A stretch of 64,000 bases of DNA from an uncultured Chitinophagaceae bacterium (lineage in GTDB: Bacteria > Bacteroidota > Bacteroidia > Chitinophagales > Chitinophagaceae). Of the stretch, positions 51,161 through 55,258 are shown piece by piece. The notes below the pieces were generated by a model. It saw only the letters and a list, made by a program, of their open reading frames with translations. It was not told the DNA's origin and did no database searches. The DNA is taken from assembly GCA_903884185.1 (NCBI GenBank), contig CAISDV010000090.1, forward strand, positions 1-64,000, given 5' to 3'. Each line of letters starts with the position of its first letter. Positions within the stretch are counted from its first letter, which is position 1. The translations under genes and the position numbers were made by a program.

Positions 51161-53878
51161 TTACTCTAAATTCTGCCCCAGCCATCTTTCCAATTCTTCG
51201 ATAGGCATCTCTTTTCTTTTAGCGTAAACTTCTAACTGATCGCGTGTAATTTTTCCCACACCATAATACTGGCTTTGCGGATGAGAAAAATACCAACCAC
51301 ACACAGAAGACGCGGGATACATGGCCAATGATTCTGTCAATTGAATACCGATGGCTTTATTAGCATCCAGCAGATCAAACAATTTATATTTCTCCGTATG
51401 ATCAGGGCAAGCGGGATAACCCGGTGCCGGGCGAATGCCTGTATATTTTTCTTTGATCAGGTCGTCATTGCTTAATTGTTCTTCTTTATCATACCCCCAG
51501 AACTCCATCCTGGTGCGCTTGTGCAATACCTCTGCAAACGCTTCTGCCAATCGGTCTGCCAAAGCTTGCAACATGATCTTGTTATAATCGTCTAGTTGCG
51601 CTTCAAATGCTTTGATATGCTTTTCAATACCATGAATGGTTACAGCAAACGCCCCAATATGATCTTTGAGGTTTGCAGATTTGGGTGCGATAAAATCTGC
51701 GAGAGAAAGATTGGGCTGACCAGGAGCTTTTTTTATTTGCTGACGGAGGGAAGAAAGTTTAATGGGCGAAGATGGTGTAGTAACATAGATATCATCACCA
51801 TCACTTGCCGCTTCCCAGAAACCGATGGTTCCCTTCGCCACCAGCCATTTTTCGGATATGATCTTATCTAATAATTTATTGGCGTCGTTAAATAGTTTTG
51901 TTGCTTCTGCACCAACTTTCACATCTTGAAGAATGTCCGGAAAATTGCCATGCATTTCCCATGCAATAAAGAATGGTTTCCAGTCGATGTATTCCCTGAT
52001 CTCCGCCAGGCTATAATCTTCAAATACTTTTGTGCCGGTGAAAACAGGCGTAACGGGTTTATAATTTGCCCAGTCGATCTTTGTTTTGTTTTGCAATGCC
52101 TCTGCGTACGACAAATAAACTTTACTGCTTTTCTTATTATCGAAATTTGTTTTCAGGGTATCATATTCTGTTTTCACTGTATCCAAAAACCCAGTCTTCT
52201 GTTCTTTGCTTAATAATGATCCGGCAACAGTTACACTGCGTGAGGCATCCAATACATGCACTACACCCATATCATATTGCGGGGCAATCTTTACTGCTGT
52301 ATGTATGCGGGAAGTGGTAGCGCCGCCAATCATCAAAGGCTGCAACATATTACGGCGCTTCATTTCTTTGGCAATATGCACCATCTCATCTAAGGAAGGA
52401 GTGATCAATCCACTCAATCCAATGATGTCTGCTTTTTCTTTGATGGCGCTGTCTAATATTTTATCGGTGGGAACCATCACGCCCAAATCAACTATATCAT
52501 ATCCATTACATCCCAATACTACACCCACTATGTTCTTACCAATATCATGTACATCGCCTTTTACCGTTGCCAGTAATATTTTTGCTGCACCTGCACCTTC
52601 TTCGTTTTTGGTACCTGCGGCTTCATGTGCCAGTCGGCGTTTTTCTTTTCCTGCTTCGATAAAAGGGGTGAGGACGGCCACACTCTTTTTCATTACCCTG
52701 GCGCTTTTCACCACCTGAGGTAAAAACATCTTGCCTGCGCCAAACAGGTCGCCCACCACATTCATTCCGTCCATCAAAGGGCCTTCAATCACATCTAATG
52801 GCTTTGGATATTTCAACCTTGCTTCTTCTGTATCTGCGTCAATATAATCCGTGATCCCATTTACGAGTGAATGTTTCAGCCGTTCTTCCACACTGGTATT
52901 GCGCCATGCTTCATCCCTTACTTCTACTTTGCCTTTTGCTTTTACGGTTTCAGCAAATACGATCAACTTTTCTGTGGCTTCATTGTTATCGTTATTCCTG
53001 TTCAGGATCACATCTTCGCAGAGTTGCTTTAGTGTTGGCTCTATCTCATCGTACACAACCAGCTGGCCTGCATTTACAATACCCATATCCATCCCGGCTT
53101 TGATGGCATAGTAAAGAAATACAGAGTGAATTGCTTCGCGGACGTGTTCATTGCCGCGAAAAGAAAAAGATACATTGGAAACCCCGCCACTCACTTTGGT
53201 TAATGGCATTAATTGTTTGATCTCTTTGGTAGCTTCAATAAAATCAACGGCATAATTATTATGTTCTTCGATGCCGGTGGCGATAGCAAAAATGTTTGGA
53301 TCGAAAATAATGTCCTGCGGATCAAATCCAACTTTCTCTGTTAATCTTTTATATGCCCTGTGGCAGATATCTACTTTTCTTTTTTTAGTATCCGCTTGCC
53401 CAACTTCGTCAAATGCCATCACGATCACCGCGGCGCCAAAGTCTTTGCAGATCAATGCCTGTGCAATAAATTTTTCTTCTCCTTCTTTCATGGAGATGGA
53501 GTTCACAATACATCTTCCCTGCACACATTTCAATCCCGCTTCAATGATCTCGAATTTAGAAGAGTCGATCATGACCGGGATCTTTGCAATGTCCGGTTCG
53601 CTTTGTAAAAGGTTGATGAAAGTGGTCATTGCCTGTACGCCTTCCAGCATGGCATCATCCATGTTCACGTCCAGTATCTGTGCACCGCTTTCTACCTGCT
53701 GCCTCGCAACGCTCAATGCTTCTTCGTATTGATTATCGCGGATGAGGCGTGCAAATTTTTTGGAACCTGTTACATTGGTTCGTTCGCCAACGTTCACGAA
53801 ATTCATTTCGGGGCGAATGATCAATGGCTCAAGTCCGGATAAGCGTAGAAAGGGTTGTATGGTCGTGTTGGAACTCAT
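51161..53878 (-). CDS. metH: Methionine synthase, pterin/cobalamin/activation part of split MetH
   Basis: 905 residues. It lacks the N-terminal homocysteine-binding domain, which is encoded separately at 53894-54931. Domains in order: pterin-binding ([18 protein letters not shown]), cobalamin-binding cap, B12-binding ([20 protein letters not shown], the His that binds cobalt), then the AdoMet-activation domain ([20 protein letters not shown]). It should methylate homocysteine with B12 bound here and the first domain on the partner. The C-terminal end is complete. The start is 15 bases after the partner's stop, so they are co-transcribed. Confidence 0.94.
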
Positions 53879-53893
53879 GTTTATTTTTTCGTT

Positions 53894-54931
53894 CTATGCC
53901 AGTTCAGTTTCTACAACAGGTAATTCCCTTGGCTGGAAATTTTTTACTGCGTCGGCAATATGTTTAATATGATCAGGCGTGGTGCCGCAGCAGCCACCTA
54001 CAATATTTACAAATCCCTGTCTTGCCCATTCTTCAATAAATCCCGCTGTCTGGTGCGGATGCTCATCATATTCCCCCATGGCATTTGGCAATCCTGCATT
54101 GGGATAGGCTGATGTGTAGCAGCCTGCAATGGTGCTCAGCTCTTCAATATGGCTACGCATTTCTGCTGCGCCCAAAGCACAGTTCAATCCAACGCTCAAA
54201 GGTTTTGCGTGCATGATGGAAGTATAAAATGCTTCCAGTGTTTGCCCACTTAAAGTACGGCCGCTTGCATCAGTGATAGTGCCACTGATCATCACAGGAA
54301 GCTCTTCGTGTTTTGTATCCCTGAAATATTTTTTAATAGCGAAGATGGCAGCTTTTGCATTGAGTGTATCAAAGATGGTCTCTACTAGCAAGATATCTAC
54401 TCCGCCATCTACCAATCCGCTTACCTGTTCATAATAAGCTGCTACCACTTCATCAAATGTAACGGCACGGTAGCCGGGATTGTTTACATCAGGTGAGAGG
54501 CTGAGTGTTTTGTTGAGTGGGCCGATGGCGCCGGCTACGAAACGTGGGCTTGCCCCTCTCCCCTGGAGAGGGGTTGGGGGTGAGGTCAAAAATTTATCTA
54601 TAGCATTTCGTGCACATTTTGCAGAAGCTACATTTAGTTCATAGGCTATCGACTGCAAACCATAATCAGCCTGTGCAATAACGGTACTGCTGAAAGTATT
54701 GGTTTCAATAATATCTGCGCCGGCTTCAAGGTATTCTTTGTGGATGCCTTCAATGATATGTGGCTGGGTAATGCTCAGCAGGTCATTATTTCCTTTCAGG
54801 TCTGATGGCCAGTCTTTGAATCTTTCACCACGATAATCTGCTTCGGTCAGTTTGTGACGCTGGATCATGGTACCCATAGCTCCATCTATAACCAGGATGC
54901 GTTCGCGTAAACAATCTTGTATCTTTTTCAT
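53894..54931 (-). CDS. Homocysteine S-methyltransferase part of split MetH, with an internal repeat
   Basis: 345 residues from the ATG at 54931; a GTG three bases upstream also fits. This is the Zn-dependent homocysteine-binding domain: [13 protein letters not shown] at the start, and zinc ligands C251 (GLNCALG), C314 and C315 ([10 protein letters not shown]). Between about 116 and 130 it carries an extra segment, [16 protein letters not shown], which is a translation of a GAGAGGGG palindromic repeat at 54552-54587. That segment is in frame and the domain core around it is intact. It is the first gene of the two-part metH operon. Confidence 0.93.
54552..54587. repeat. Dispersed palindromic repeat inside the coding region of metH part 1
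   Basis: CCCCTCTCCCCTGGAGAGGG, then GTTGGGGGTGAGG, forming a 9-bp stem (CCCCTCTCC with GGAGAGGGG). It is 36 bases, a multiple of three, and leaves the frame open. Such CCCCTCTCC...GGAGAGGGG elements are common in Bacteroidota intergenic regions. Confidence 0.7.
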
Positions 54932-55196: not shown

Positions 55197-55258
55197 GTTA
55201 CTGGTTGCTAGTTTCTAGTTACAAGTTGTATAACCAGTAACCAGCAACTAGTAACTCA
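55197..55258. repeat. Imperfect inverted repeat, GTTACTGGTTGCTAGT family
   Basis: GTTACTGGTTGCTAGTTTCT on the left and AACCAGTAACCAGCAACTAG on the right can fold with a few mismatches. It lies between YceI and metH and could also act as a terminator-like stem. Confidence 0.5.

Follow-up and report, generated by a model that had tools for sequence, protein, structure and literature searches.

The window (the whole 64,000-nt stretch of DNA analysed here) carries metH split into 2 adjacent genes, spanning 51161-54931, the first of which contains, in frame in a surface loop, a short GC-rich palindromic element. The features of this locus are as follows:

53894-54931, minus strand: metH part 1, which houses the element; its product (P0001, 345 aa) is a homocysteine S-methyltransferase domain (ORF and translation)
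51161-53878, minus strand: metH part 2, without the element (ORF)
54553-54585, minus strand: the 33-bp unit (the element), tag plus hairpin, in frame in metH part 1 (sequence)
54576-54585, minus strand: tag CCTCACCCCC, preceding the hairpin when the metH strand is read 5' to 3' (sequence; variants occur in other copies of the family)
54553-54573, minus strand: hairpin CCCCTCTCC-AGG-GGAGAGGGG, with 9-bp arms and a 3-nt loop (sequence)
54548-54586, minus strand: codons of the 13 residues T116-S128 of P0001 (translation and predicted model)

The metH part 1 product matched PF02574 in Pfam with an E of 2.5e-101 and methionine synthases of the PDB with a best E of 3.4e-126, and it is the sole MetH1 match of the source genome of the window (G000). 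MetH1 frames of ~337-399 aa occur in the same family, and several other families of the order possess a single frame of >1200 aa. Read on the metH strand, from 54585 down to 54553, the unit is CCTCACCCCCAACCCCTCTCCAGGGGAGAGGGG, comprising the tag, 2 bases and the hairpin; in the metH frame it is translated as 11 residues that follow a leucine. An exact-arm hairpin pattern matched the window once and none of 100 shuffles, while a tag-plus-arm pattern likewise matched once, against a chance mean of 0.01. Since Rfam returned 0 matches at gathering score across 54300-54850, a reading of the unit as a structured RNA was rejected. An unrelated observation concerns an AT-rich repeat present as 2 inverted intergenic copies at 55200-55252 (ACTGGTTGCTAGTT / CAGTAACCAGCAACTAGT); sequence similar to it adjoins the unit at another locus (L005).

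An initial annotation had described a palindrome of 36 bases at 54552-54587, translated in frame as 13 residues. The in-frame palindromic element was borne out by sequence, ORF and translation, but compared to the 33-bp unit the span included one extra base on one side and 2 on the other; the peptide is indeed T116-S128, albeit 13 residues require 39 bases. In the predicted model of MetH part 1 (mean pLDDT 87.2 using a 44-sequence alignment; mean 66 for residues 121-130), a helix at 93-116 is followed by a short helix at 121-124 and a strand at 131-136. The peptide is thus predicted to lie within the connection between helix and strand, where the annotation had placed it. Residues C251, C314 and C315, which we take to be the zinc ligands, were invariant in the same alignment and the ORF is continuous, in agreement with its further statement that the zinc ligands and frame remain intact.

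We compared this loop across 110 MetH1 loci, 107 of which gave an anchor (106 besides the window); 2 rows (L083 and L102) were mis-anchored, 5 of the 107 gave no length, and the rows are not independent, as some species are present in both collections. None of the other 106 rows carried the 33-bp unit in the loop, consistent with the term 'inserted' used in the annotation. The loop itself, however, is present in orthologues: measured from the helix end to VAG it ranged from 11 to 23 residues, most commonly 16 or 17, and the window has 23, a net gain of about 6 residues over the commonest length. The best matching solved methionine synthase (4ccz, presumably the human enzyme) was 8 residues shorter over the aligned stretch. 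Given this natural variation in length and so small a net gain, we conclude that the unit replaced or displaced part of the loop, and a clean 36-bp insertion (12 residues) was rejected.

We measured how widely the palindrome is distributed. The source genome contained 5 matches to a 21-base pattern with ≤3 mismatches, compared to 0 for the reversed control; the annotation's plural 'these repeats' is therefore apt for the genome, but the window holds a single copy. A looser pattern gave 9 matches versus 5 in the reversed control, so that the weakest of these may be due to chance. Across 195 genomes of the family, the 33-bp pattern with ≤3 mismatches was found at 73 places in 37 genomes, with a maximum of 7 per genome, and the reversed control gave 0 in every genome row. 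That the source genome is in 188 contigs might suggest an assembly artefact. However, the unit lies on a 111-kb contig, and the same patterns recur in many genomes, some of which consist of one to 10 contigs (G163, G102 and G090). Together with the results for shuffles and reversed controls, these findings make chance or artefact most improbable as the source of the metH unit; chance was rejected on the shuffles, the chance mean and the reversed control.

Copies were found inside long ORFs (at least 200 aa, with 40 on each side of the unit) in 27 of the 73 cases, metH included, whereas 1787 of 2720 random 33-bp windows of the same loci were so located. The copies are thus under-represented in genes, as would follow if many insertions do harm, but they are not excluded from them. 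Thirteen of the 27 lie in DUF559-bearing ORFs and 14 are solo units, metH among the latter; 3 of the 14 share one site of one gene family (L131, L132 and L251). The in-ORF copies use 5 of the 6 frames, and none uses the antisense frame that holds a TGA. The palindrome is therefore open in several frames and sits in frame within genes whose products presumably work, as described for palindromes of the Rickettsia type. EPSP synthase carries solo units in the same loop but in opposite orientation in 2 genomes (L130 and L172). Other hosts of solo units are RecQ, 2 amidohydrolases, a FecR-type protein and a multicopper oxidase, and a Mur ligase (L144) carries a further copy outside the 73. In the LeuRS gene of the source genome (L014 / L160, G000:C158), a second, solo unit is situated shortly before KMSKS; it is interrupted by an extra CCGAATGGCTTGGCCGGG segment, similar to one in the C42 copy (L003).

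DUF559 was detected beside unit copies at 8 of 68 loci scanned (4 further unit loci were fetched for holding DUF559), and beside none of the copies in 25 loci from the viral collection. One contig of that collection (L377) holds 4 copies in one orientation, ~330-670 bp apart, with no DUF559 detected in the locus. Given that most copies are without an adjacent DUF559, and that some occur in arrays such as L377, solo units may spread by another route. These observations bear on an alternative view of the metH unit, as a REP-like palindrome that entered a tolerant loop alone, with no DUF559 ever there in this lineage; in the strong form of this view, the repeat is mobilised by something else, such as a RAYT. 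Support for this view comes from the absence of DUF559 beside most copies, from the opposite orientations in the EPSP synthase loop, from the known occurrence of REPs within ORFs (available text of PMC3733652) and from the 5 Y1_Tnp matches of the source genome. In contrast, neither the unit nor a matching palindrome was found at any of these 5 Y1_Tnp loci, where no match below 5 mismatches to the tag-plus-arm pattern was obtained; a RAYT as the cognate enzyme in the source genome was rejected on these grounds. Insertion of the unit alone overlaps with our best explanation, developed below, and we regard it as possible rather than probable. At one of these 5 loci (L159, G000:C80), the Y1_Tnp (RAYT-like) gene is flanked by a different palindrome, TCCCCGTCTCTGACGGGGA / TCCCCGATGGAATCGGGGA, of the form TCCCCG...CGGGGA.

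The sole DUF559 match of the source genome lies inside LeuRS, within one open frame, and the hairpin at this site differs from that of metH. At E≤1e-50, this genome has no LeuRS match outside of that DUF559-bearing frame. The same was true of 14 of 14 genomes with a DUF559-bearing LeuRS, which thus appears to be the only LeuRS of these genomes. On the solved LeuRS of Thermus (2v0c/1h3n), the point of insertion maps between residues 236 and 241. Pfam identified a host family together with DUF559 in one frame for all 17 DUF559-bearing ORFs scanned, representing 15 host protein families, and several host profiles were split into 2 stretches around DUF559. Hosts in relatives include LeuRS (2 loops), chorismate synthase (AroC), MetH part 1 (2 loops), MetH part 2, MetRS, a methylmalonyl-CoA mutase fusion, CinA, adenine deaminase, IspG/GcpE, HsdR and an M23 peptidase, while DUF559 was near-N-terminal in an amino acid kinase, a HisA-type protein, a GHMP kinase and a nucleotidyltransferase. 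One type I restriction HsdR (L161, G075:C9) contains both GIY-YIG and DUF559 domains in frame.

Among the matches listed, 70 of 93 analysed DUF559 domains were not classed as free-standing, in a sample that is biased by its composition towards long frames (31 loci from the search, 44 chosen for long frames and 16 for short frames). In the phylum, DUF559 was found in 170 of 296 genomes; many of the matches listed are in frames of >1000 aa, and restriction enzymes may account for some of these. The solved chain nearest to DUF559 is 3hrl, an 'Endonuclease-Like Protein'. The inserted domains retain D (70/70), E (69/70), D (69/70) and H (70/70), which we read as a putative active site and which are the conserved nuclease residues that a homing endonuclease would be predicted to possess. 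No Hint or intein family was detected at E≤0.001 in 30 proteins scanned with Pfam, 17 of them DUF559-bearing, and membership in the inteins was rejected as the latter 17 ORFs are without a Hint splicing domain.

We scored C-rich hairpins with a stem of ≥7 within 210 nt of DUF559, using 69 of the 70 inserted domains of the biased sample (among the matches listed). A hairpin was found upstream in 45 of 69, downstream in 41 and on both sides in 32, so that both are recognisable in fewer than half of the inserted domains; control windows had hairpins on both sides in only 8 of 386 cases. For free-standing DUF559 the corresponding values were 8 of 23 and, for control windows, 3 of 134. Loci from the phylum search exhibited hairpins on both sides in 13 of 20 cases, using a slightly looser criterion and without a control. 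At the chorismate synthase of G019 (L168), the 21-mer hairpin of the window recurs, identical in sequence, upstream of DUF559. We refer to the family as the DUF559-linked palindromic element, and paired C-rich hairpins characterise it as a family-level enrichment. The frequency of hairpins at both ends of DUF559, far above control, argues against a REP-like palindrome that moves without DUF559. Since C-rich hairpins are associated with in-frame DUF559 insertion, an association that the annotation did not include, the metH unit may have been left behind as a scar and need not be a repeat that moves freely.

The metH loop of relatives provides evidence on both sides of the question of whether a full DUF559 element formerly occupied this same loop, leaving the unit as its scar. 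A C-rich hairpin was found in the loop in 3 of the 107 rows, namely the window, L033 and L073. The hairpin of the latter 2 is of another type (TCTCCC..GGGGGAGATTTAGAGG; the peptide of L073 is SPTGGDLEG), and it resembles what is found at the right end of some DUF559 insertions (for example L228 and L229). In G066 (L190), DUF559 is in frame in the same metH part 1 loop, accompanied by a variant hairpin. These 3 cases, and the occurrence of full and solo states within a genus at AroC and LeuRS (see below), favour a scar. In contrast, the hairpins of L033, L073 and L190 are all variants of that in the window, no full element bearing the window's hairpin type was found in metH among the relatives' rows read, and no DUF559 linker residues were recognised between the metH hairpin and the host strand. 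A scar of this kind is a sub-case of our best explanation, and we advance it tentatively, as a reading that is plausible but falls short of likely. At metH of the source genome itself there was no DUF559, the profile matching only in LeuRS. In metH part 2 of 6 relatives, DUF559 is in frame before the GAFAV segment (L178 of the 6 was Pfam-checked). In G028, a copy of the unit (L030 / L126, G028:C2:389775-389807) lies ~17 bp beyond the end of the metH part 1 match, outside of the loop.

To what extent the elements are inherited in place or move was assessed using LeuRS site A, for which 19 of 20 rows were used, 2 of them from one genome (G012). Identities of host and DUF559 were uncorrelated (Spearman 0.004; 19 loci from 18 genomes, 171 non-independent pairs). 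In 2 congeneric pairs the hosts were 87% identical and the DUF559 inserts 51%, while in a third (G145/G028) the respective values were 84% and 76%. A DUF559 tree was built from 106 columns, and 27 of its 90 inner branches were open. One of its clades, comprising 11 rows (92/87, short of the level that the tool stars), united inserts from AroC, both LeuRS sites and one other ORF; the left ends of 8 of the 11 read LTPxPSPKERG or SPxTPLQ. Over the whole tree, rows clustered by host site (25 label changes versus 61.8 when shuffled), and the ArgB_N, MetRS and CinA labels each formed one clade. This clustering, together with the similarity in G145/G028, indicates that vertical inheritance also occurs. 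Taken together, clustering by site and the uncorrelated identities at LeuRS site A point to both inheritance in place and movement.

Clustering by site and the single clades for ArgB_N, MetRS and CinA, which fit vertical inheritance in place, are likewise what would be expected if DUF559 were a useful accessory domain that had spread through domain shuffling of the ordinary kind, with the hairpins serving as linker sequence. However, DUF559 is spread over 15 host families among the ORFs scanned, host and insert identities are mismatched at LeuRS site A, the hairpins are shared with copies outside of genes, and scars persist after loss. Despite the clustering, we therefore judge domain shuffling to be unlikely.

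Different states of the same site were found in congeneric genomes. At AroC, G163 has a full element and G080 a remnant consisting of the left end and a PGY linker; G151 has a full element and G061 a right-end remnant; and G122 has a left remnant where G195 is clean. At LeuRS, G090 has a full element and G170 a solo unit at the same place. Solo units at LeuRS and AroC thus occupy loops of full elements, and one retains linker residues, findings that run counter to insertion of REP-like units alone. No defensible target-site duplication was found in the LeuRS and AroC DNA of the congeneric pairs, nor was a very close empty/filled pair found, so the insertion event itself was not seen. The annotation had regarded the metH palindrome as direct evidence that such repeats can move into genes. 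As we found no close relative in which the site is clean and empty, this is too strong for the metH locus alone, but the family is in frame in many genes, and the evidence for movement comes from the family as a whole, by comparison. Viewed in this way, the family appears to be mobile and tied to DUF559, a conclusion that is well supported by the sequence comparisons.

The element resembles several known systems, albeit with distinct differences. Like Rickettsia palindromic elements (RPEs), it is a short palindrome in frame inside genes; judged by their description, it differs in its 33-bp unit, its occurrence in Bacteroidota and the similar hairpins that flank an in-frame endonuclease domain. 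The available text of PMC3733652 describes REPs and RPEs as in-frame palindromes of genes whose protein products are likely functional, and its single use of the word 'endonuclease' refers to insertion sequences as a whole. The element is like REP / RAYT systems and REPINs in that a conserved tag adjoins the hairpin, solo units are dispersed, and a nuclease gene is flanked by units. In the REPIN layout, palindromic units lie on both sides of the nuclease gene. In contrast to REP / RAYT, the tag here is CCTCACCCC, neither GTAG nor CGTC, and the enclosed nuclease is DUF559 rather than a Y1 HUH protein.

With Vsr-like EDxHD homing endonucleases (I-Bth0305I), and with inteins bearing nested endonucleases, the element has in common an in-frame nuclease in conserved proteins that is patchy among relatives; indeed, DUF559 insertions at the LeuRS and AroC loops were patchy among congeneric genomes. 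PMC9403480 assigns a DUF559 gene to the EDxHD family of homing endonucleases of Taylor et al. 2011. Unlike either system, the element is without a splicing domain, occupies many different hosts and sites, and has hairpin ends. The same domain family (DUF559) includes Caulobacter VsrA, which the available text of PMC12907096 describes as Vsr-like, as the product of its own gene and as held responsible for an SOS response in cells lacking a DNA methyltransferase. Here DUF559 is instead embedded in host enzymes, a situation that this text does not mention for VsrA. Searches of an open-licence library, judged by title and the start of the abstract, gave no account of DUF559 insertions that are in frame and end in hairpins.

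Based on these comparisons, we consider it probable that the metH unit is one end, present on its own, of a mobile palindromic family of Bacteroidota that is linked to an endonuclease and whose full form would carry an in-frame DUF559. Weighing against this view are the many copies without an adjacent DUF559, the different hairpins at the DUF559 of the source genome and in the metH loop of relatives, the frequent lack of a recognisable hairpin on one or both sides of DUF559, the scarcity of copies in genes relative to random placement, and the clustering of DUF559 by host site. At metH itself, our best reading is that the unit either is a scar or reached the loop on its own. In the mechanism we propose, the full form would consist of a DUF559 domain of ~110 codons, often with C-rich hairpins on both sides, situated in a host loop as one uninterrupted frame. 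The domain would be translated and retained in the mature host enzyme, the putative endonuclease would cut target DNA, and repair would copy the element in. Selection would then retain in-frame events, which would be easy because the unit is open in 5 of 6 frames. Later in-frame deletion of the endonuclease would leave one end behind as a peptide scar.

A broader proposal, which we hold tentatively and at close to even confidence, is that these are selfish elements inside proteins that do without splicing. Each would consist of a Vsr-like endonuclease bounded by hairpins of the REP-like kind and readable in most frames; it would invade loops of essential enzymes in frame, be expressed within the enzyme, spread between genera and genes, and decay to in-frame peptide scars such as that of metH. 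If this is true, an endonuclease element would have a means of persisting in an essential gene besides the intron or intein, namely by staying in a loop of the mature protein. Odd peptides of Bacteroidota proteins, such as SPPTPLQRRG, LTPNPSPKERG and PLSFGEGLGVR, would be explained as ends or scars of the element, and DUF559 would gain a testable role. Furthermore, since full, scar and empty states occur at the same codons in congeneric genomes, the entry of mobile palindromes into reading frames would be directly testable in this family.
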